Shown in pieces: positions 14,811 through 40,829 of a DNA stretch of 42,416 nt. Under the pieces are notes generated by a model. It was not told the DNA's origin. It made no database searches and worked only from the letters and a program-made list of their open reading frames with translations. Origin of the DNA: Kiritimatiellia bacterium (GTDB lineage Bacteria; Verrucomicrobiota; Kiritimatiellia; RFP12; UBA1067). The DNA is taken from NCBI GenBank assembly GCA_017520845.1, contig JAFXEU010000074.1, forward strand, positions 1 through 42,416. The letters are read 5' to 3'. Both the position numbers and the translations under genes were made by a program. Positions within the stretch are counted from its first letter, which is position 1, and the number at the start of each line of letters is the position of its first letter.

Positions 14811-15743
14811 ATGCCTAAAGTCGCCGTAGTCGGAGTTGTAGGCAGGACGAACGCCGGTAAATCGACGCTCGTCAACCGCTTGGTGGGCGAGAAGGTTTCG
14901 ATCGTCTCGCCCGTCGAGCAGACTACACGCAACACGATACGCGGCATTGTCGACGAAGAACGGGGGCAGCTCGTTCTTCTCGACACTCCGGGGCTTCACA
15001 AGGCCGTCGGCAATCTCGGTAAAATTCTCAACCGCATGGCGCGTCGCAGCGCTGCGGGAGCCGATATTCTCGCCGTCGTTTTCGACGCTTCCGAAGAGCC
15101 TCAGATGGAAGACATCGGCTGGATGAGCCGAGTTGCCAAAGAAAAGCCCGAGAAGCTCGTTTTTGTTCTCAACAAAGCCGACCGCAATCCTTTTTACGAA
15201 GATGCGTTCAGGGCGGCGTGGGACGAGGCGCTTGCCGATGTCGCCGCGGCATATCCCGATGAGAGCGGAGTCGTCGCCGAGCCGGTCTGGGTGAAGGCGA
15301 TCTCAACTACCGAGGGCGGCGCAAACAGGGTTTTAGACACGCTTTTCGGATTCGCCGAAGAAGGCGAGAAGCTTTTTCCCGAAGACATCGTAACCGACTA
15401 TCCGCGTAAACTCGCGATGAGCGACGTTATCCGCGAGAAGTTTCTGGCGCGTCTTCATCAGGAGATCCCCCATGAGCTCGGTATTGCCGTAAAGAAGATT
15501 GTCGAGAGCACGGGCCGCTGGGATGTCGAGGCCGATGTCATCGTCAACCGCAACTCTCAGAAGCCGATAGTCATAGGACGCGGAGCCGAAACTCTGAAAA
15601 ACGTCCGTAAAAGGTCCGAGCGCGAGCTTTCCGAAATTTTCGGCGTCAAGGTCGCTCTTAAACTCTGGGTCCGCGTCGAACCGAAGTGGATGCAGAACGA
15701 GAAGATACTCTCCGAGATGGGATATGTGGGAGGAGAGATATAA
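14811..15743 (+). CDS. era: GTPase Era, 30S ribosomal subunit assembly factor
   Basis: A 310-aa GTPase that binds 16S rRNA during small-subunit maturation. The G1 motif is GRTNAGKST, the G2 region TTRNTIRG, the G3 motif DTPG and the G4 motif NKAD. The C-terminal KH domain contains VIGRGAETLKNVRKRSERE followed by VALKLWVRVEPKW. In canonical Era the G1 reads GRPNVGKST, so Pro to Thr and Val to Ala are mild variants. The gene follows glyA by 15 nt and is probably on the same transcript. Its last bases contain the Shine-Dalgarno of the next gene. Confidence 0.95.
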   Translation: MPKVAVVGVVGRTNAGKSTLVNRLVGEKVSIVSPVEQTTRNTIRGIVDEERGQLVLLDTPGLHKAVGNLGKILNRMARRSAAGADILAVVFDASEEPQMEDIGWMSRVAKEKPEKLVFVLNKADRNPFYEDAFRAAWDEALADVAAAYPDESGVVAEPVWVKAISTTEGGANRVLDTLFGFAEEGEKLFPEDIVTDYPRKLAMSDVIREKFLARLHQEIPHELGIAVKKIVESTGRWDVEADVIVNRNSQKPIVIGRGAETLKNVRKRSERELSEIFGVKVALKLWVRVEPKWMQNEKILSEMGYVGGEI

Positions 15744-15744
15744 G

Positions 15745-17856
15745 ATGCGTATTCTCCGGTTATCTCTCCTGATTCCGGCGCTTTTGACGTTTTCCGGCGT
15801 TTTCGCCGGGGTGTCTGATCTTGATGTGGCTAAAAAGGCTCTGCGCGACAATCTTTGGGAAATCGCCAGAATCCGCGCCGCCAATGTCGACGGTGATGAA
15901 GCCAAGGTGATTATACTCGAAAGTTACGCCCATGAGGGCAAGTGGAAGGAGATTCTCTCTCAGCTTAATTCGTGGGGAAACGTTCCGGCTACCGATCCGT
16001 TTGTTTTCTACCGCACGCTGGCCGAGGCCAGGCTGAACGGTTCCTCAAGTCTCGTCGATGTTCTTTCGAATTTCAAATTTGCCGATAAATCCTTCGCCAG
16101 GAGTCTGGCGGCACTTTGCGTTCAAATGTCTCTTCGTGACGGTGATGTGGCGGGGGCGAAAAAAATAGTCGAGGATTTCGCTCTTTATTCAGCCGACGAT
16201 GATTCAAAGGTCGTTTCCGCCGAAGTTTACAACATTGCGGGAGACCGCGGCAGGGCTGTCGCTCTCTGGAGCGAGACGGTTTCATCCACTAACGCCGGTG
16301 AAACGGCGTTTGCGATGGCCGCGTGGAATCTCGGAGACACGAACAGCCTTAAAAGCGCGTATTCGAAAATCGAAAGGGACGTCGAGCTGAAGCGTCGCGT
16401 CGGATTGAAGCTGGGCACGGTTCTGATAGCCGATCCTGAATCTTTCGAGGAGGGCAGGAAACTCATCGTTTTTCTCGTGAATGAATCACCCGGTACAAAA
16501 GGTGCCATGGAGGCGTTGCTCGCGCTTGCCGACAAACATCTCAAAAGCGGTCGTTGCGAGGAGGCCGAAAAAGCTTTTCACAATGCGATTGAGGCGTGGC
16601 CGGAGGCCGCGCGGAATTATGTCGTCCACGAAGGACGCGGCTGGGCGCTGCTGGAACTTAAAAGATATGATGATGCGCTGCTGTCGTTTTCCCGCGCGGA
16701 GGAATGCGCCGCCGGCGACAACGATAAGGCCACGGTGATTCTGAAGCAGGGGGAGATCCTTTCATTGCTCGGACGCGGCGAAGAGGCGATGGCGAAGTAT
16801 CGTGTCGTGAAAAACAATTATCCCGAGACTCCCGCCGGTAAAAAACTCATACGCATTCTGCATCTTAAGGATCTCGAGTCCCGCGGCCGCGATCTCTACC
16901 GTGATTTCCGCTTTGCCGAGGCGTATGACGTGTTTGCCGAAATCGCGAAGTTGGACCCCGCGAGCAAGCCGCGCATGGAATATCTTGAAATGCTCTGTTT
17001 CTACGGTCAGGGCAAGGACGAGAAGGCGTGTTCTATGGCTCAGAATCTTTCTTTGCATTGCGAAGATCCTACGATAAAGGCCGAGGCGACGCTTTGGCTG
17101 GCGAAGTTCTTCTACAACGAAAGGCGCTGGTCCGAGTCCTGCGATCTTTTTTCCGGTTACGCGACCAACATGATGCCTTCGTCGGCCGGGGCCCCTTACG
17201 CGCTTCTCTGGGCGTCGCGCGCGGCTTTCGCCGGCGGAGATTCCCGTAAAACGATCGATCTGGTGACGAAGCTCATCAAGGATTATCCCGAATCGTCCGA
17301 AAGGCCTTCCGCATGTATCCTTCAGGCGGAGGCGCTCGTTGAAACCTCGCGCTTCGACGAGGCCATAGTCGTTTTGAACAATGCGGTAAACGATTTGAAA
17401 ATCACTCCCGCTGAACGAGTGCGGGCGAGAACGCTTTTGGCCGACGTGCTGTTCGTGATGGGAGCCGACAATCCGGTGCGTTACGACGAGGCGCTCAAGG
17501 TCTATCTGGCTTTGTATATGGGCGAGAAGCTTGAAACCGGCAAAAAAATCAATCTCGCCTTTAAGATGGCCAGGACGTTCGAAAAGCTCGACCGCATTGA
17601 ACTGGCTCTCGATCAGTATTACGGCGGGGTTATCTGCGCCTATCGCGACGCCAGGGCCAGAGGCGAGGTTTTCGACGATGAAGTCAAGTCCAATTTCGCT
17701 CGCGCCGCATTCAGACTTTCCGACGAGTATGAACGTCGCGGTCAGGACGAAAAGGCGAAGAATATTTTAAGACTGGTCATACGAAGCGACGTCAAGGCCT
17801 CGGTCGAGGAGGCGCGTCGCAGACTTAAGCGCATTAAAAAGAAAGGCGGTTTCTGA
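15745..17856 (+). CDS. Exported TPR-repeat protein
   Basis: A 703-aa protein with a signal peptide (MRILRLSLLIPALLTFSGVFAG). The remainder is alpha-helical with many TPR-like repeats, for example SGRCEEAEKAFHNAIEAWP, KRYDDALLSFSRAEECA and ETSRFDEAIVVLNNAV. It probably acts as a periplasmic scaffold. I prefer the ATG at 15745 because GGAGGAG lies at 15729-15735, nine bases upstream. An in-frame ATG at 15724 lies within era and would precede the signal peptide. The stop overlaps the ExbB-like start as TGATG. TPR genes are often next to ExbB/TolQ clusters, where they are thought to assist the complex. The specific role is unknown. Confidence 0.85.
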   Translation: MRILRLSLLIPALLTFSGVFAGVSDLDVAKKALRDNLWEIARIRAANVDGDEAKVIILESYAHEGKWKEILSQLNSWGNVPATDPFVFYRTLAEARLNGSSSLVDVLSNFKFADKSFARSLAALCVQMSLRDGDVAGAKKIVEDFALYSADDDSKVVSAEVYNIAGDRGRAVALWSETVSSTNAGETAFAMAAWNLGDTNSLKSAYSKIERDVELKRRVGLKLGTVLIADPESFEEGRKLIVFLVNESPGTKGAMEALLALADKHLKSGRCEEAEKAFHNAIEAWPEAARNYVVHEGRGWALLELKRYDDALLSFSRAEECAAGDNDKATVILKQGEILSLLGRGEEAMAKYRVVKNNYPETPAGKKLIRILHLKDLESRGRDLYRDFRFAEAYDVFAEIAKLDPASKPRMEYLEMLCFYGQGKDEKACSMAQNLSLHCEDPTIKAEATLWLAKFFYNERRWSESCDLFSGYATNMMPSSAGAPYALLWASRAAFAGGDSRKTIDLVTKLIKDYPESSERPSACILQAEALVETSRFDEAIVVLNNAVNDLKITPAERVRARTLLADVLFVMGADNPVRYDEALKVYLALYMGEKLETGKKINLAFKMARTFEKLDRIELALDQYYGGVICAYRDARARGEVFDDEVKSNFARAAFRLSDEYERRGQDEKAKNILRLVIRSDVKASVEEARRRLKRIKKKGGF

Positions 17857-18491
17857 TGGCTTTTATGTTTGGCAGCGTTATGCAGATGACGATGGCCGCC
17901 AACGTGGTTTTTTGGATCCTTATCGCGCTTGCGGTCGCGGCCGTTTTCGTTTTCGTCGAGCGCTTTATCGAATTGCGCCGCGCCCGGATCGATTGGCATG
18001 ATTTTCTCAAAGGCGTTATGAACGTGCTCGATTCCGGCAACGAGGACGAGGCTTTGGCCATCTGCGAAGATATTCCCGTTCCCGTGACGAACATCGTCGC
18101 TGTCGCCATCCGCCACAGAAAGGGGAGCGCCTTGTCTCTGAGGGAGGCCGTAGACGCCAGAGGCCGCGCCGAACTGGCCCGTCTCGACAGACGTCTGACG
18201 TCACTTTCCGTGATCGGCCAGATAGCTCCTCTTCTCGGTCTTATGGGGGCTCTTATCGGTTTTGTCCAGACGGTGTCCGTAGTCGATCTCGGTGTGGTAG
18301 TTCAGCGTACCGAACTTGTTCAGATGGCCTCGAAATCCATGGTGAGCGCCATAATCGGTTTAGGCGTCGCCATACCGGTCGCCGTGATGTACACAATGCT
18401 CCGCCTGAGAATGGACCGCCTTACCGCCGATCTCGAAGCGGCCGCGACGGAGATCGTAGGCTATCTGCTTTCAAAGGGAGTCCGCGCATGA
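17856..18491 (+). CDS. ExbB/TolQ/MotA-family membrane protein lacking proton-path residues
   Basis: A 211-aa inner-membrane protein with the family layout: a TM helix near 16-36, a cytoplasmic loop, and TM helices near 117-140 and 161-182. The family core is clear in IGQIAPLLGLMGALIGFV and GLGVAIPVAVMY. Aligned by eye with E. coli ExbB, Thr148 corresponds to Ala132, Glu176 to Lys160 and Thr181 to Ala165. These are the residues linked to proton passage, so the usual proton-motive function is doubtful. The gene is coupled to the TPR gene before it and to an ExbD-like gene after it, which has matching losses. Confidence 0.87.
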   Translation: MAFMFGSVMQMTMAANVVFWILIALAVAAVFVFVERFIELRRARIDWHDFLKGVMNVLDSGNEDEALAICEDIPVPVTNIVAVAIRHRKGSALSLREAVDARGRAELARLDRRLTSLSVIGQIAPLLGLMGALIGFVQTVSVVDLGVVVQRTELVQMASKSMVSAIIGLGVAIPVAVMYTMLRLRMDRLTADLEAAATEIVGYLLSKGVRA

Positions 18492-19003
18492 GACAGTGGG
18501 GATGGTCGAGAACAAGCCCGGAGAGTCCGGGTAGAAAGAGCCTGCCGACCTGGCTCAGGGCTCTTTCCGCCGCCGTGCCGTGGATAACGATGCTGATCCT
18601 GTTTCTGACCATTTCGAAGATAGACGGTACGTTTTTTCTCGACAGGGGCACGCTGATCGATCTGCCCGACGGAGTCGGAGATATTTCGCGGTGTCACGCG
18701 GTCGCGTACGTCTCTCATACCGACGAGGGTGTGCTCGTCTTCTTCGACGATACGAGATACGTTTTAAACGAACCTTCCCAGATGGACAAGTTTTCCCGCA
18801 TACTTTTCGAACGCGTGTCGTATGTCCCGTCTTCAAATGGCGCCGCGGACGGCGATTCCGAATCGTCGGTTCCGACGCTTTTTCTTCTTGTCGACAGGCG
18901 TGTCACGCTTGAAGACCAGATGTATATAACGCGAATCGCCAGAAAGAGCGGAGTAGGCCGCATTATGATAGCCGAGCGGAAGGAAGGCGCTGTTCAGGAA
19001 TGA
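18488..19003 (+). CDS. ExbD/TolR-like single-pass protein without the TM aspartate
   Basis: A 171-aa protein with a short cytoplasmic N-terminus, one TM helix near 26-43 and a periplasmic domain. The C-terminal piece TLFLLVDRRVTLEDQMYITRIARKSG fits the ExbD/TolR domain, and GTLIDLP matches the family segment after the helix. In E. coli ExbD the helix begins TPFIDVML with the essential Asp25. Here the matching segment is VPWITMLI, with Thr34 at that position and no acidic residue in the helix. It overlaps the exbB-like stop as ATGA. An acidic Ser-rich insert near 113-126 is unusual. The family call is moderately secure, resting on position, topology and C-terminal pattern. Confidence 0.72.
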   Translation: MRQWGWSRTSPESPGRKSLPTWLRALSAAVPWITMLILFLTISKIDGTFFLDRGTLIDLPDGVGDISRCHAVAYVSHTDEGVLVFFDDTRYVLNEPSQMDKFSRILFERVSYVPSSNGAADGDSESSVPTLFLLVDRRVTLEDQMYITRIARKSGVGRIMIAERKEGAVQE

Positions 19004-19470
19004 CGAAAATCCGCATTAAACCTCAACGCCGCTTGAGATACGAGATGCTCTCTCTCGTACCGCTTGCGGTTTTGACCGCTGCTCTTTTTTTCGCGTTCCC
19101 TTACAAGGTTCTGAGCATGAAGAAGTCTGACGTCGAGTTTTCCCCGCCTTGTTGCGCGTATGTCGAATTGACGGGCGAACAGGAACTCGAAGTCATGAAA
19201 AAAATCCATTCTGCGATTTCTACGGACGTGGTGGGAGTCCGCGATCTGCGGGCGGATCTTTCGATTTCCACGATTCCGGAGCGTCCGTCGGAGACGATCG
19301 TCAGGATCGAAAGCCGGAAATCTCCTGCGGATATTTCCAGACCGGAACTCGAGCTTTCCTCAGTCCCGTCGACGCTCGCCGCGCCAGAGCCGGTCGAGCT
19401 GACACCCTCGGAGGAGCCGGAAGGCGCGAAAACTTTTTCGAAAGAAAAAATGCTGAAACTCATCGATTGA
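19000..19470 (+). CDS. Single-pass membrane protein of unknown function in the ExbB/ExbD-like set
   Basis: I do not recognise this 156-aa protein. It has a basic cytoplasmic N-terminus (KIRIKPQRRLRYE), one TM helix near 16-34 and a roughly 120-residue periplasmic part rich in Pro, Ser and Glu after about 95. PPCCAYVEL contains two adjacent cysteines. It sits where TonB or a second ExbD usually lies and overlaps the preceding stop as ATGA. It lacks a recognisable TonB C-terminal domain and a convincing ExbD fold. It could be a degenerate TonB-like arm or an accessory subunit. The frame is supported by the coupling and by its conserved-looking topology. Confidence 0.7.
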   Translation: MTKIRIKPQRRLRYEMLSLVPLAVLTAALFFAFPYKVLSMKKSDVEFSPPCCAYVELTGEQELEVMKKIHSAISTDVVGVRDLRADLSISTIPERPSETIVRIESRKSPADISRPELELSSVPSTLAAPEPVELTPSEEPEGAKTFSKEKMLKLID

Positions 19471-32946: not shown

Positions 32947-35900
32947 ATGAAGATTTCATCTGCTTTTTATTTCAACCGCGCGGGATTTGCGGTAAAATCA
33001 GGATCAGGTACGGCGACTTTCCTCGTTAGGACGATTGCCGTGTTTGCCGCATTCGTCGCGTTTGACGCATTCGCGGCTCTGCGCATTACTGAAATATGTC
33101 CGAGACCCGACGCTCCCGATCCTAACGGAAAAGAAGCCGGATGGATAGAACTTACGAATATGGGCGATGAGCCTGTTAATCTGAACAATTACGCTCTTAT
33201 CCGATGGAATCGCGGTAAGGAAGACAAGAAGAAAAACCGCCGCAGACTTTGTGACCGCGTTTTAGCTCCCAACGAGCGGACGCTGGTTTATACGAGCGAG
33301 GCTTATCCGAATTATCGGGACGGCGAGAAGGTGGCCGTTTATGAAAATGACGTCATGGTATTCCCTTCGAAGGTGAACCCGAAAAAGTTTCCAAACGTCG
33401 CGCTCTATAGAGTTAATGCCGATGGTGAAGCGAAAGATAAAATAGAGACGTTCATTGTTCCGGTCGATCTTCCCGACAATCGGAGTTTCGGTCCCGGACA
33501 GGTTGATGAAACTCATGACGTTCCGCTTACGGATGATAATACTCCTTACCAATATAAAATCGGTGATGAAGACTTTAGTTCGACATCCGGGACCTTAACA
33601 GTTTCGACTAAAAAGCCGCCGAGAGATTTAACCGACGCTTTAGTTGAAATGGAAGTTGAGGCTGATGATTCGGTGAAAAAAGCTTCACTTTCAGAATCGC
33701 TTGATGCTGCTGACGTTTTGCAGAAAGGAGCATACGATTTTTCAAATGCGACGAGCGCGAATAGAGGCGTTAAGATGATTCCTAACGATTATCCCTCGCA
33801 CGCATACACCGTTTCGCTTTATTTTCGTTCTAATCCGTCTTCCGTAAAAGCCGAACACAATACCGCCAATAACGGCATGCCGCTGTTCGAGTGCCGCCCG
33901 TCTAAAACCGGCGATAGGACGGGTATGATGGTATTTCTGAATGACGACAATCAGATAACGCTGCAACCGCGTTCCCGAAGCGACAGCAGAACATACACGT
34001 CAGATACCACCGTGGATTATGCCGACGGCAAGTGGCATCATCTTGTGCTGGTCGCGGGACAGACCGAGGGGGATGAATTATCGCTCTATATCGACGGAGC
34101 GGCAGAGTTCGCCGGAACAATGCCGTTTGACTGCAAATTGCAGGATACCGTTCCGTTTTGCTTTGGACACGCCTACGATTCAACATCTTGGCATTTATTC
34201 AAAGGGCAGCTCGCCGACATTCGCGTCTATAAGAGAGCTTTAAGCGAGACTGAAATCTCATATCTTGCGAATGAGAATCTCGCCATGCGCGAAGTTACTT
34301 CTGAGTATGGCGGGCTTACATGTAAAACAAATGCTGTGACGGCTACGAAATTGACTTACGATAGCGCTAAAGATACTTATTTATTTTCGTCAGGTGAATA
34401 TAATTCGCTGTTAGCATATATTGAAAACAAAGAACAGCAAACCGATGAATTTTGTAAATCCGGCGAAACATTGAGTTTCTGGATAAAGCCTTCGTCGTTC
34501 GCCGCTCCCGGAAGCGAGGCTGTCGCGCTGATGGATTCGCGCGCCGGGGCGCAGGTCAAGGAGGGCTATTTGCTTTTGATCGGGATCCGCGATGATTCCA
34601 AAAAGGGTCGTGTTTATCTGCAGCGAGGTTCAGGCAGCGTGGCGGGCGGCCTTCACAATATCGAATTCGGCGAGGCTCCTGAGATTCCGACCGGCGAATA
34701 TACCCATGTCGTGTTCTCGATCGATGCCGTAACGAAAAAGGGGACGCTTTATTTAAATGCCCGCAAGACGGGTACGGCGGATGTTCCGTACTATGAGCCG
34801 TCGACAACGACGCGCAGATTCGGCGGAACCCATGACAGATATTGGCGAGGCTTCCGCGGAGAGATGTCCGAGATAAAAATTTTCTCGGGAGTTTTACCCG
34901 AGCGAGAGGTTGTTAAAATTTACAACGCCTCTGAACATTCCGCAGAAGACATTCTTGAAAACGGGATTGAGGGAGCGATTGGTGTTGATGAGCTGCGGTC
35001 TTTGACGATAAAAGGAAACTTGACGCTCCCTGAACATGTCGACGGAGCGACGTTGACTTTCAATGTCGACAAGATCGGCGGGGACATTACGTTAAAGTCC
35101 GGCGGCGCCGATCTTCCTGTAGGGGAACCTGTTGAACTTGACGGCAACGTCACGGAATTCCCGTTCACTTTTACGCTCTCCCCGGATTTGAACATCGATG
35201 TGATGCGCTTTTCGTTCAACGCCGTGCGGGGTGCGCCTGTCCGCGGAGTTTCGCGCAAGATTTTTACGACCTTAACGCCTGGTGCAGAAAATGACTATAG
35301 CGGATGCGTAGCTTACGGTCCTAATATCGGTCCGTCTAACTCTGAGATTTATGAAGATTTCGGCTATTACCTGCCTAAAGCGATGGCGACGGTTGGTGAA
35401 CCGTACACAGTCGTTCTTGATGTTCATCCGATATCCGGCGACAGCGAAAATGAGATTGCAAAAGTTGAACTTATGTATCGCAGTAATTTAGGCGAGGTCA
35501 AATATGTCGATGCACCCTTTACTCAAAATTCGTTTAAGCGTATTGTCGAAGAGGAGGACGAGTCGGGTGAGGAAGTCGAGGTTGAAAAACTGAGCGGCGG
35601 ATATGTCGGAGTCATTCCCGCTTCAGATATTCCCGAATCTGGAAAGCTTATTCAATTCGGCGCACGCATTACTGACGGTGCCGGACGCAGCTGGATTTCA
35701 CCATCGCGCAACAATCCCGATGATTGTCCGAACTGGTACGGTACGATCGTAACTCCCTCTGAAGATCAGAAGTCAAAGCATGATAAACTTCAGACTTTCC
35801 ATCTTTTCGTCGAGGAGTCTCATTTAAACCTTATGGATAAGGATTACGATGCGATTAAAGGGTCGCATCCGCTCGGTGCGCGTTGCGGTGTTTATGATGC

Positions 35901-37923
35901 TCAGACGGATACGTATTACGATAACGTGCGCATTGATCTTCGCGGCAATACGACGGCGGGCTTCGCCAAGAAGTCGCACGGTCTCAGGTTTTCGAAATGC
36001 CAGCCGCTCACCTGCCGCAATATGCTCGAGGGAGGCAAGAAGGGCACGAAGCTCAAGGAAATCCGCAAGACGTCCTTTATCGCGGAGTTTGCCGATCCTA
36101 CCTTTATCCGGCAGGCGTTGTCGTTTTATGTTTGGCGCAATGCCGGCAACAAGGTGCCGTTCGATTATCCGGTGCGCTTGAATCTGAACGGCGAATTCTA
36201 TCAGCTCGCGTTCCATTCCAACCGCTTCACGGACGAACTTATCGAAGATTACTACGGTCTTGATCCGATGGGGTACGGGTATAAGAACGTAGGCGCGATT
36301 TCCACGGATATCGGTACGGTCGCCGGCGAGGTCGAAAAGAAAACTCCCGACGACGGCGATGAGACGAGTGCCGCGGCATATGCGCCGCTGAAAGTTTTTG
36401 CCGAAACTTTTAAGTCGTCGGTAAATTGTCCTGAAAATGATTCTGCTCTGACCGGGGTCGTCTACGACACGTTCGATATTCCCGCGTGGATCAACTATCT
36501 TGCGACGGCGCGCATCACCCAGGAGGCGGATGATATCTGGGCGAATATATGTCTATATTGGGATAAAAACGGCAACGGCGTATGGATGCCGCTCGCGTAC
36601 GACCACAATCTTTCGTGGGGCGCGTGGTATTTCGGCGACGACCGCGATAAGGGCCGTATCGGCGTAAGACCCGATGACGACAGCTTCAAGTCGCATCCGT
36701 TTTACGGCGGGTGGAAGATACGCGCCTACAAACAAAACGGTTCCGCCGTCGGTAACGGCAACTACGCCGTCGAGGCGATCTGGCAGAATTCCGATTTTCG
36801 CCGGATGTATCTGCGGCGTTTGAGAACTCTGATGGATGAGCTTCTTAAAGCTCCCGGAACCGCGAAGGAGGACACTCCGTTCTGGAACGATTACGTGAAG
36901 CTCTTCAAGGAAGTCATCGCCGCGGATGCCGAGATCGACCGTGAAAAGTGGGGCGAGTCTTATAAAGATACCGTAATATACGTGTGGGATCGCGTGCTCG
37001 GACTGGACGAGGCTTATGATGACTTGTGGGAAAATTATATTGTCAGGCGCCGCAATCACCTTTATAATACGCATTCGATCACCAATACGGCCAGAGAGAT
37101 CGGGTACGCGTCCGACAGGAACGCGGGCATACCCCTGTCGCATCCCGAAAAATTCGCGCCGATACTGATCGGGAAGATCGACGGCGGCGTAAAGCTTACG
37201 AACCCCAATGTCGATTCCATCGACCTGAGCGGCTGGACCGTGGAAGGCTTGATGGACGTTTCGACGCTGCCCGAAGATTCCGCTGATGTCGTCACGCTGC
37301 CGCCCGGTACAGTGCTTCTCGGCGGCAGCTCGCTCGTTCTCGCGTACGACCGCAAGACGTTCATCGGGAAAAACGAGCCGTGCTTCGTCATCGGTCTTGC
37401 CGTCTACGGCGATGACAAGACGTGGATACCGGCGGCGAATCCCGACGCGACCGCGATCGTTCTCAAGAAGGCGAACGGCGACGTCGTCGTTGACGATCTC
37501 GTTCCCGAGGGTGTCGCGGCGTGGCTCAACGAAGCGCTTGAGAAGGGTGCCGTGACGGTCGATTCCCTTTCGGCGGTTACGAAGGCCGCCGATTACGAAG
37601 TCGCGTATCTTTTAAACGAAGTTCCGGTCTCGGATATGAATGAGAATACGGTGCTCAAAATCACCTCTTTCTCCGTCGATGTTTCGGGCAATGTCATGAT
37701 CGGCGCCTCGCTTGACGTCAACGGCGAGTCAAAGCGCGGTTCCATTAACGGTTATGTAAGACTTTATTCTTCTCAAAGTCCTTCGGGGCCATGGGACGAA
37801 ACGGACGTTTCGGGGCAATCTTTCGACGGGAACGGGATTGTCGAGTTGACCGGCGGTTCAGGAACGCGCAATCCCGTCAATGCGGACAGCCCATGCTTCT
37901 TTAAGGTTAAAATAACGCGATAG
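32947..37923 (+). CDS. Large secreted LTD/LamG/CotH multidomain protein
   Basis: A 1658-aa exported protein with a long basic N-terminus and hydrophobic signal segment near 27-45 (ending DAFAALR). A lamin-tail-like domain covers about 44-135 (RITEICPRPDAPDPNG). Two LamG/concanavalin-like domains lie near 280-440 (GKWHHLVLVAGQ, LYIDGAAEF, ADIRVYKRALSETEI) and 508-655. A CotH-like kinase-fold domain covers about 950-1380 (IDLRGNTTAGFAKKSHGLRF, RLNLNGEFYQLAFHSNRF, WMPLAYDHNLSWG). A second lamin-tail-like segment lies near 1405-1530, followed by a beta-rich tail. CotH proteins phosphorylate spore coat proteins in Bacillus. Here the motif corresponding to WDxDxxFG reads YDHNLSWG. It likely acts on the cell surface, with target unknown. 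Confidence 0.85.
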   Translation: MKISSAFYFNRAGFAVKSGSGTATFLVRTIAVFAAFVAFDAFAALRITEICPRPDAPDPNGKEAGWIELTNMGDEPVNLNNYALIRWNRGKEDKKKNRRRLCDRVLAPNERTLVYTSEAYPNYRDGEKVAVYENDVMVFPSKVNPKKFPNVALYRVNADGEAKDKIETFIVPVDLPDNRSFGPGQVDETHDVPLTDDNTPYQYKIGDEDFSSTSGTLTVSTKKPPRDLTDALVEMEVEADDSVKKASLSESLDAADVLQKGAYDFSNATSANRGVKMIPNDYPSHAYTVSLYFRSNPSSVKAEHNTANNGMPLFECRPSKTGDRTGMMVFLNDDNQITLQPRSRSDSRTYTSDTTVDYADGKWHHLVLVAGQTEGDELSLYIDGAAEFAGTMPFDCKLQDTVPFCFGHAYDSTSWHLFKGQLADIRVYKRALSETEISYLANENLAMREVTSEYGGLTCKTNAVTATKLTYDSAKDTYLFSSGEYNSLLAYIENKEQQTDEFCKSGETLSFWIKPSSFAAPGSEAVALMDSRAGAQVKEGYLLLIGIRDDSKKGRVYLQRGSGSVAGGLHNIEFGEAPEIPTGEYTHVVFSIDAVTKKGTLYLNARKTGTADVPYYEPSTTTRRFGGTHDRYWRGFRGEMSEIKIFSGVLPEREVVKIYNASEHSAEDILENGIEGAIGVDELRSLTIKGNLTLPEHVDGATLTFNVDKIGGDITLKSGGADLPVGEPVELDGNVTEFPFTFTLSPDLNIDVMRFSFNAVRGAPVRGVSRKIFTTLTPGAENDYSGCVAYGPNIGPSNSEIYEDFGYYLPKAMATVGEPYTVVLDVHPISGDSENEIAKVELMYRSNLGEVKYVDAPFTQNSFKRIVEEEDESGEEVEVEKLSGGYVGVIPASDIPESGKLIQFGARITDGAGRSWISPSRNNPDDCPNWYGTIVTPSEDQKSKHDKLQTFHLFVEESHLNLMDKDYDAIKGSHPLGARCGVYDAQTDTYYDNVRIDLRGNTTAGFAKKSHGLRFSKCQPLTCRNMLEGGKKGTKLKEIRKTSFIAEFADPTFIRQALSFYVWRNAGNKVPFDYPVRLNLNGEFYQLAFHSNRFTDELIEDYYGLDPMGYGYKNVGAISTDIGTVAGEVEKKTPDDGDETSAAAYAPLKVFAETFKSSVNCPENDSALTGVVYDTFDIPAWINYLATARITQEADDIWANICLYWDKNGNGVWMPLAYDHNLSWGAWYFGDDRDKGRIGVRPDDDSFKSHPFYGGWKIRAYKQNGSAVGNGNYAVEAIWQNSDFRRMYLRRLRTLMDELLKAPGTAKEDTPFWNDYVKLFKEVIAADAEIDREKWGESYKDTVIYVWDRVLGLDEAYDDLWENYIVRRRNHLYNTHSITNTAREIGYASDRNAGIPLSHPEKFAPILIGKIDGGVKLTNPNVDSIDLSGWTVEGLMDVSTLPEDSADVVTLPPGTVLLGGSSLVLAYDRKTFIGKNEPCFVIGLAVYGDDKTWIPAANPDATAIVLKKANGDVVVDDLVPEGVAAWLNEALEKGAVTVDSLSAVTKAADYEVAYLLNEVPVSDMNENTVLKITSFSVDVSGNVMIGASLDVNGESKRGSINGYVRLYSSQSPSGPWDETDVSGQSFDGNGIVELTGGSGTRNPVNADSPCFFKVKITR

Positions 37924-38105: not shown

Positions 38106-38111
38106 ATGGGT

Positions 38112-40829
38112 ATGTTAGATTTTCTATTTAGCGAGGCTGTGATGGCTAAGATTGGCGCGGCGTTGGTTGCCGCGCTCTTGGCGATCGCATTCGGGAAAAT
38201 CATACTTTCGATGCTGGGGCGGTTTTTCAGGTTTTGGCTAAAGTTGCCAGTATTAGCTAAAGTAATTCTTCCTGCTGTTTTGATTGTGTTTTGTCTTCAC
38301 GGCAGCATTAAAAACAGAGGGGCGTTTTCGCTTCGGCCGGCCAATGTCGCGACTGTGACGGATGTTGATATCGAGCGCGGGTTTAAGTTGGAGAGCGTCG
38401 TTACCAACGCGGCGTATTTTTATGAGCTTGCGAGTAATGCTGTGCGCAATGCGGCCTGGCATTTGGCGGGCGGGCATAGCGCCTTTAATCGGTATAATCT
38501 CGGATGGTCGTTTCCAATGGGAGAAAACAGTTACGATCATATTATTGCTTTTCAAGAGGGGAGCGTATTTCATAATCCGCGTGATGAACATCCGCTTTTC
38601 AAGCTGTACGACGGGGTCCTTTCGTTTGTTCCGGGATATTCCGATTTTTGGACGCTGATAGATGATAAGCGCGGCGTTTTTACTTGGCACAATGTCGTAC
38701 CGTACGATAAGACGAACGAAACGGTTTCGGTTCAGTTGGAGCTTATTAAGAACGGAGATTTTACGATTCGCTCGAATGAACTTGAGAATGTTTATCGGCG
38801 CATCAATCCCGATGATTGGGATAATGACGGTTTAGCCAATGAAGTGGACGACGCACCGAAGAGTTACGACGGGGATTTTTTCGGCGTCGCTTCGCCGCTT
38901 CCTGAAGGAGCTCTTGAGTCGGCGTATTACTGGATAGATCTTTGCGTGACGGGCGCTGTCGATACGGCAACGGTGCGCGTTATTTGCGACGGGCCGAGCG
39001 ATTTAGGCGACCATGTAATTATCGCACGGACGAATGAAGTTTTTAGAGTTCCGCTTTTAAAAGGCGCGTGTTACGATGTTGAAAGTGCGCTTCCGATCTG
39101 CGTTGTTGATCAATCCAGTGATAATATCGAGGTTTCATGCAATGATTGCTGGGAGTATCATCATCCTTCAGTAAGTCATCATTATTTGAGTGTCAGTTAT
39201 TATGTAGATTTTTGGCTTGAGAACAGCGGGAATCTTTGCGGGCTAAAGAGTTCTGAAAATATCGGCGCGGCAGTTTCTGATGTGACCGGCGCCTGTTGTA
39301 AGTCGGATATTACTTCGCTCGGCTTCAGGTGGTGCTGCAACGCGAGCTGCAACTGCGGAGGGGATCACGAGCATTATCTCAATGGGCTTGTTTCGTGGGA
39401 AGGGTACACGACATGGCTCGGCTCGTGGGTATATTGTGCGTGTGCTGAGGATGATTCTTCGGAAGAGGAGAGCGAGCCGCCAGTAAGTTTGTCACTCTCG
39501 ATTCCGCGCGTTATATTCACGAATAACGACGGCGCGGCGGAAAAGTCTGATTTAGCTCCGTTGTCGATTTCCTTTGTTGCGCCCGTAACTACGAATGGTG
39601 TTCTGGTTGTTGATTCTCCTGAAGATACGAATGATATAGCAATATGGGCAGACACGAATAAAACCCAACGGGTAGATTTTCCTATTGTGTTGCCGATTGA
39701 AGGTTCTTCTTTTTCTACAAATCTTTATGTGGAAGGTCTTTATTCCAGTTATTCTGAAGATGCGATAGTTCTGTGTGCAAACTGGAAAGAAGAAGAGAGC
39801 GGGACTACAAAAATATCTGTTACAAGACGTTCTACTATCTATTATCCAGTTGCTAATGTGATTAACTGCACTCTTTATGATAATGGGCGGCTATGTAATC
39901 CGTCCGGGATTGTGGTTGGGTCTAACGCTTGCTTTGTTGTTGAGTTCCCCTACTTTGAACCACCGTCGTCGGAGATAAAGTGGTCTGTTGTTGAAGGTGT
40001 TGCGCGTTTTGTCGGAGGAGATACGGGAAGCAAGGTCTATGTCACAAGCGACATTCCAAATCAAATCGTTAAGCTTCGCGTTCAGGTTGGCGATTGTGTA
40101 AGCCGGCCGATAGAGTTTACCGCGTTTACGGTCGAGCCTCTTTCGGTTAAGACGACGGTATGGATAGTGCGGGATGACAGAGGGAATAATGCAGCTCGTA
40201 CGGCTGATGAAGTTCGAACTATGATGTCCGAGGCAAATAGAATTTACGAGCAGATTGGCGTTTCGTTTTACATTGATTCTATTTCGTATACGAATCGAAG
40301 TGACTGGTTGGATATTTCAAAGCCTAGAGGCGACATGTCTGTTAGTGATTTAGTAAAGCGCAGGCAATTGGTTGGTTTGTCAAAGGATACAGGTGGGATA
40401 GAAGTCTATTTTATTGATAAAATATCAGATCGCTCCATAGCTAATGCAGATATGTTTGGAATTGTTGTGTCGACAAATGCTACGGCAAAAGGGCTTGCAC
40501 ATGAAATAGGACACGCATTTGGTTGTTCTGATATTTATCATGCCAAGAAAATACAAGGGCAGGTTATAACACTACCTGATCGAATGGCGTATAAAGAACA
40601 TGCGGAATATGATTGGAATAATGGAAGTGGATGTCGTTATTATCCTAGAAGTGCGACTCAAGATCAATTGATTGCGAGTCTGCTGATGTGTGGATATCAG
40701 TATCCTCAAATCGGAGACCTCTCGTACGGATCCGTGTATGGTTTTGCGAGGAATGATGATATACCAGGTATGGTTGACGTAGGCTTTTTTAGGGGTAGTG
40801 TGCGCCGATCAATTCAATTGCACAGATAA
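38112..40829 (+). CDS. Membrane-anchored protein with calcium-loop motif and C-terminal metzincin-like protease
   Basis: About 905 aa. I chose the ATG at 38112 over the in-frame 38106 because the -10 box ends at 38105. Two hydrophobic helices near 11-33 and 47-63 anchor it. A calcium-binding loop reads DDWDNDGLANEVDDAP near 234-249. The middle is cysteine-rich (CCKSD, WCCNASCNCGG) and unrecognised. The C-terminal domain has HEIGHAFGCSD with zinc ligands His797, His801 and Asp807, catalytic Glu798, and a possible Met-turn at Met859 (LLMCGY), the layout of metzincin peptidases. Base composition becomes AT-richer towards the 3' end. It could be a surface protease or an effector with a replaceable C-terminal domain. 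Confidence 0.75.
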   Translation: MLDFLFSEAVMAKIGAALVAALLAIAFGKIILSMLGRFFRFWLKLPVLAKVILPAVLIVFCLHGSIKNRGAFSLRPANVATVTDVDIERGFKLESVVTNAAYFYELASNAVRNAAWHLAGGHSAFNRYNLGWSFPMGENSYDHIIAFQEGSVFHNPRDEHPLFKLYDGVLSFVPGYSDFWTLIDDKRGVFTWHNVVPYDKTNETVSVQLELIKNGDFTIRSNELENVYRRINPDDWDNDGLANEVDDAPKSYDGDFFGVASPLPEGALESAYYWIDLCVTGAVDTATVRVICDGPSDLGDHVIIARTNEVFRVPLLKGACYDVESALPICVVDQSSDNIEVSCNDCWEYHHPSVSHHYLSVSYYVDFWLENSGNLCGLKSSENIGAAVSDVTGACCKSDITSLGFRWCCNASCNCGGDHEHYLNGLVSWEGYTTWLGSWVYCACAEDDSSEEESEPPVSLSLSIPRVIFTNNDGAAEKSDLAPLSISFVAPVTTNGVLVVDSPEDTNDIAIWADTNKTQRVDFPIVLPIEGSSFSTNLYVEGLYSSYSEDAIVLCANWKEEESGTTKISVTRRSTIYYPVANVINCTLYDNGRLCNPSGIVVGSNACFVVEFPYFEPPSSEIKWSVVEGVARFVGGDTGSKVYVTSDIPNQIVKLRVQVGDCVSRPIEFTAFTVEPLSVKTTVWIVRDDRGNNAARTADEVRTMMSEANRIYEQIGVSFYIDSISYTNRSDWLDISKPRGDMSVSDLVKRRQLVGLSKDTGGIEVYFIDKISDRSIANADMFGIVVSTNATAKGLAHEIGHAFGCSDIYHAKKIQGQVITLPDRMAYKEHAEYDWNNGSGCRYYPRSATQDQLIASLLMCGYQYPQIGDLSYGSVYGFARNDDIPGMVDVGFFRGSVRRSIQLHR

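Follow-up and report, generated by a model that had tools for sequence, protein, structure and literature searches.

Ton and Tol machines use the proton gradient of the cell for pulling on the outer membrane, and the membrane aspartate of ExbD, TolR and MotB is, to our knowledge, regarded as indispensable. The locus described here raises the question of whether an ExbB/ExbD-type complex in which this residue is replaced may have been retained without ion coupling. The locus lies on a 42,416-nucleotide stretch of DNA from a Kiritimatiellia bacterium, a member of a group of gut bacteria (GCA_017520845.1, JAFXEU010000074.1, positions 1 to 42,416), called the window below. In the open-access papers searched, no natural loss of the ExbD aspartate was reported.

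The four-gene cluster and its products

Both the ExbB-like and the ExbD-like reading frames were present at the coordinates in Table 1, with short start/stop overlaps with their neighbours. The cluster is read in a single direction, successive genes overlapping at their start and stop codons, in the order TPR protein, ExbB-like protein, ExbD-like protein and single-pass protein, and is flanked by era and pyrE; neither TolB nor Pal was found in the operon. The TPR protein has a probable signal peptide (the likely start is the internal Met of MRILRLSLLIPALLTFSGVFAG) and was matched by the TIGR02795 ybgF model at 5e-21, below the cut-off of the model. A near-identical locus was found in the yak-rectum MAG Kiritimatiellae bacterium RGIG9840, in which these proteins are 95-100% identical. 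With the window ExbD-like protein as single query, the search for related loci found the sibling genome only. Elsewhere in the window, LTD, Laminin_G_3 and CotH domains were found in the 1658 aa product of positions 32947-37923, and positions 38106-40829 hold a 907 aa open reading frame with no Pfam match at E <= 1e-4.

Table 1. Positions in the window of the cluster genes and of the sites discussed in the text
Feature	Position	Strand	Basis
TPR protein, first gene of the cluster	15724..17856	+	TPR_6 7e-14; CpoB/YbgF-like repeats
ExbB/TolQ-like protein, 211 aa	17856..18491	+	PF01618 1.3e-16; alignment; predicted fold
Lys160 codon, ExbB E176 site	18333-18335		
Ala165 codon, ExbB Thr181 site, co-varying with ExbD-like Thr34	18348..18350	+	
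ExbD/TolR-like protein, 171 aa, periplasmic ExbD-type domain retained	18488..19003	+	Profiles; predicted fold
Thr34 codon, site of the proton-carrying Asp (ExbD D25)	18587..18589	+	
TonB-like transducer without C-terminal domain: TM helix, D-box-like strand, Pro-rich linker	19000..19470	+	
C-terminal peptide FSKEKMLKLID	19435-19467		

The ExbB-like protein passed the curated cut-off of PF01618 (MotA/TolQ/ExbB proton channel family) with 60.9 bits versus 22.9. TolQ was its best NCBIfam and PDB sequence match, and the best Foldseek matches of its single-chain structure prediction (mean pLDDT 93) were E. coli ExbB and TolQ. For the alignment, E. coli ExbB and TolQ from NC_000913 and the paralogues of the window genome were used as references. 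A132, K160 and A165 were aligned with ExbB T148, E176 and T181, and the pore Thr ring (T148 and T181) is thus missing in the window protein. These correspondences had been assigned by eye in the sequence-only reading and were confirmed by the profiles, the alignment with the E. coli proteins and the predicted folds. The same reading had counted E176 as a proton-path residue; however, the site is occupied by S, M, K and E in the canonical ExbB paralogues of the genome, so K160 by itself says little, and E176 was dropped as a marker of proton coupling. T148A and E176K are features of the sub-lineage of the window; D25T and T181A occur in nearly the whole genus.

The ExbD-like protein has the architecture of the ExbD/TolR family, one TM helix and an ExbD/TolR periplasmic domain. 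PF02472 (ExbD) was matched by 69 of the 70 members of the orthologue alignment, and the profile of the relatives was aligned with canonical ExbD/TolR by hhalign with a probability of 97.8% and gave PDB profile matches to ExbD (1.4e-10) and TolR (2.6e-8). TolR (5by4) and the periplasmic domain of ExbD (8pek/8vgc) were the top matches of the predicted fold. As had been proposed, alignment, profile comparison and predicted fold place Thr34 where ExbD has its essential D25 (D25/D23 in ExbD/TolR), and the membrane aspartate is therefore absent from the window protein.

The last product of the cluster, previously taken for a single-pass protein without further assignment, was aligned with longer orthologues (about 235-263 aa) bearing a TonB-like C-terminal domain (CTD); one of these domains scored above the TonB_C cut-off and two more weakly matched TonB_2. 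Thus, an unrelated partner was rejected, and the protein is read as a TonB-like force transducer whose CTD has been lost. The domain was absent from the window protein both by the CTD profile (each training sequence was tested with itself excluded) and by the alignment with the longer orthologues. Since pyrE begins 13 bases past the stop codon, no CTD is hidden downstream, and concealment by a frameshift was ruled out. The TM helix is followed by a strand, CCAYVEL in the window protein and AAYVVLAP in relatives, that by eye looks like the TonB D-box, which binds ExbD (PMC10907165). No His, and hence no SHLS motif, is present in the TM helix of the window protein; a His was found inside the TM helix of a few deep orthologues (e.g. 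G081, G119 and G128). In 35 of the 44 short proteins, the place of the TonB domain is taken by a short conserved peptide at the C-terminus (consensus FSREELLKID), which may be a binding motif.

Site states and co-variation across Kiritimatiellae

The profile of the ExbD-like protein matched 271 of 288 genomes, the weaker matches of which may be canonical ExbD. From the class Kiritimatiellae, 156 adjacent ExbB-like/ExbD-like pairs were extracted (118 pairs in an earlier set). Among loci reaching far enough, the TPR gene preceded the pair in 35/36 T/A, 25/31 D/T and 18/21 N/T cases (ExbD site/ExbB181); pyrE followed in 34/40 T/A loci. The distant relatives keep the Asp and both Thr within the same TPR-ExbB-ExbD-TonB-like operon, which is class-wide; the window cluster, earlier put forward as an undescribed system, is a derived form of this operon and not a wholly undescribed kind.

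At the Asp25 site of the 156 ExbD-like orthologues, T is the commonest residue (63), ahead of D (37), N (35) and S (14), and 7 have another residue. The state of ExbB181 follows this site. With D, it is Thr or Ser in 37/37 pairs (Thr 36, Ser 1), and Thr148 is also retained in every D-type pair; with N, it is Thr or Ser in 32/35 (Thr 30, Ser 2; three N/A pairs); with S, in 10/14 (four S/A pairs). With T, it is Ala in 62/63, the exception being one T/T pair, and with A, M or I it is Ala in 6/7. ExbB181 was the top column of both proteins by normalised mutual information with the site state (118 pairs). In the cryo-EM structures of E. coli TolAQR and TonB-ExbBD, the two sites touch, the essential Asp being in contact with the polar Thr ring (PMC12215075).

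The association was evaluated with phylogenetically independent pairs on maximum-likelihood trees built without the two co-varying columns. About 5-6 changes in the same direction versus none in the opposite direction were obtained (p 0.03-0.06, borderline) under a D/N/S versus rest grouping that was picked with the data in view; the association was weaker for D/N versus rest. The 38 pairs added to the earlier set gave no sharper result. The exchange arose separately at least in the family of the window, in G040 as compared with its congener G035, and in G055/G215 as compared with their congeners. The substitutions are not restricted to one genome: the joint loss in the two subunits is confirmed, extends over dozens of species, shows co-variation and is under purifying selection (see below).

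The CTD of the transducer was detected in 28/32 D, 21/24 N and 5/9 S loci and in 1/33 T/A loci (loci with enough flanking sequence). In the tree, this loss traces essentially to a single event; the tie to the loss of the Asp is thus not independently replicated, and a statistical link was rejected. Note that the CTD is mostly retained in Asn and Ser species, so that losing the Asp and losing the CTD are not strictly coupled.

Canonical pairs elsewhere in the window genome, for which the sequence-only reading had asked, were found: four ExbB loci and five ExbD genes keep the canonical Thr (both) and Asp. In the same genome, locus L003 (G000:C76) holds a second TPR-linked pair, in which a TPR protein comes after canonical ExbB and ExbD, and adjoins an apparent purH. 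Locus L002 (G000:C12) encodes ExbB, two different ExbD and a TonB-like proline-rich protein, with the canonical Asp throughout; at L006 (G000:C36), a protein of 363 aa with a weak MotA_ExbB match (20.8 bits) and coiled-coil-like repeats is followed by a single-pass protein.

A probable loss of ion coupling and its alternatives

The joint loss in dozens of species, the co-variation, the purifying selection and the presence of canonical pairs elsewhere make a stator-like complex independent of the proton motive force, as first proposed, the best reading; that ion coupling has been lost in the window complex is what we infer from the sequences. The proton site, its contact partner and the outer end of the pulling arm are gone, yet selection maintains the locus, which points to a role that is probably not proton-driven. 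Specifically, we favour (probability about 0.6) a former Ton-type 5:2 motor retained as an assembled, ion-uncoupled envelope scaffold or sensor working with the periplasmic TPR protein. The broader proposition, that a static or signalling ExbBD-type complex without ion coupling is lineage-wide, so that a 5:2 "motor" family persists without its motor residue, we regard as evenly balanced.

The ancestor would have been a complete Ton-type machine, widespread in Kiritimatiellae, with a periplasmic TPR protein, an ExbB pentamer, an ExbD dimer and a TonB-like transducer. In the lineage of the window, the ion-binding Asp of ExbD would have been exchanged for Thr and the ExbB Thr touching it for Ala, probably with the packing of the contact kept, and the transducer has lost the domain that reaches the outer membrane. 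The four proteins may still assemble: an ExbB-like ring forming the pore would enclose two ExbD-like helices (a presumed 5:2 stoichiometry), and the periplasmic domains of the ExbD-like protein may bind the shortened transducer by its D-box-like strand, close to the TPR protein. Such a complex would no longer be turned by proton flow; it might be a static scaffold in the envelope, or a sensor or adaptor that serves the cell wall or the periplasmic TPR protein.

The main rival is that the complex is still ion-driven, the role of Asp25 being taken over by another group, such as a relocated acid (Glu at site 176 of ExbB) or a water/hydroxyl wire that runs past Thr34. An acidic residue stands at site 176 in 34/63 T-type pairs versus 1/37 D-type pairs, so an acid was apparently gained after the loss of the Asp in much of the genus. 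However, the window protein has K there, its two nearest relatives have K and R, and further T/A lineages have G, R, Q or P; of the T/A pairs, about half to two thirds carry an acid at this site and the others K, R, Q, S, P, G, N, A or T, and no conserved acid was found in the membrane part of these pairs. Thr is not expected to undergo cyclic protonation at physiological pH. Moreover, D25N suffices to inactivate ExbD in E. coli (PMC11658791). We consider continued ion drive unlikely.

Slightly less probable still is that the Thr-type ExbD is a regulatory or capping subunit mixing with canonical ExbB and ExbD, so as to switch motors off or to make one-sided motors. The canonical genes of the same genome would offer partners, and heterologous TolR-like pairs are known at other loci (PMC12204202). 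However, at the contact site the Thr-type ExbD co-varies with the ExbB encoded next to it, which suggests a dedicated partner; the two genes also remain side by side.

Decay of the locus, i.e. a redundant Ton copy drifting towards a pseudogene, would agree with the stepwise loss of the Asp, the Thr and the CTD and with the ExbD-like protein and the transducer being the fastest evolving of the cluster. However, the dN/dS values against the sibling genome G025 were 0.05 (ExbB), 0.31 (ExbD), 0.20 (transducer) and 0.07 (TPR protein); these ratios are rough, dS being small (0.05-0.16) and the counts low, and most comparisons with remoter genomes were saturated in dS. Dozens of species have uninterrupted reading frames, P31, P60, D136, G155 and the FFD-R motif are invariant or nearly so in the orthologues, and the new C-terminal peptide of the transducer is itself conserved. 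In addition, the ExbB-like orthologue was found in 32 and the ExbD-like one in 31 of 35 genomes of the same genus, many of which are incomplete. Decay is thus improbable. An alignment artefact, with the real pore residues in another register, might be suspected from the window ExbD-like protein having no Pfam match when searched singly, but is hardly credible, since orthologues with D in the Thr34 column, three residues past an invariant Pro, bridge to canonical ExbD, the predicted TM helix (21-48) has no acidic residue except D46 at its periplasmic end, and no alternative register gives it one.

Under the favoured reading of an ion-uncoupled complex, the natural D/N/S/T variants with the matching change of the ExbB contact would represent a mutational path from a motor to an apparent non-motor. 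Such a series would let the ExbBD functions that depend on ion flow be told from those that require assembly only, and it advises caution in annotating such genes as proton channels.

Comparison with known systems

The cluster shares with the Ton system (ExbB-ExbD-TonB) the folds of ExbB and ExbD, a transducer with a single TM helix, a D-box-like strand after this helix and, in distant orthologues of the window transducer, the TonB C-terminal domain. It differs in that the lineage of the window lacks ExbD Asp25, ExbB Thr148/Thr181 and the TonB CTD, in that the operon includes a periplasmic TPR protein, and in that the TM helix of the transducer is without the SHLS-type His. As for Tol-Pal (TolQ-TolR-TolA, CpoB/YbgF), the best match of the ExbB-like protein is TolQ and the TPR protein is YbgF/CpoB-like; however, TolB and Pal are missing, the proton residues are lost, and the transducer has no TolA-type C-terminal domain. 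The MotAB/PomAB flagellar stators and the AglRQS gliding motors belong to the same 5:2 motor superfamily, but are reported with a membrane acid (PMC9389320), which is replaced in the window.

Loci of the PVC group (e.g. in Tichowtungia) encode a TPR protein, a TolQ-like protein, two TolR-like proteins and a vWA transducer, have an SHLS motif, and were read as driven by the proton motive force (PMC12204202). They belong to the same superphylum as the window and likewise combine a transducer anchored by a TM helix with TPR, TolQ-like and TolR-like proteins; the window locus differs from them in having one ExbD, a transducer of the TonB type and an ion site that is lost.
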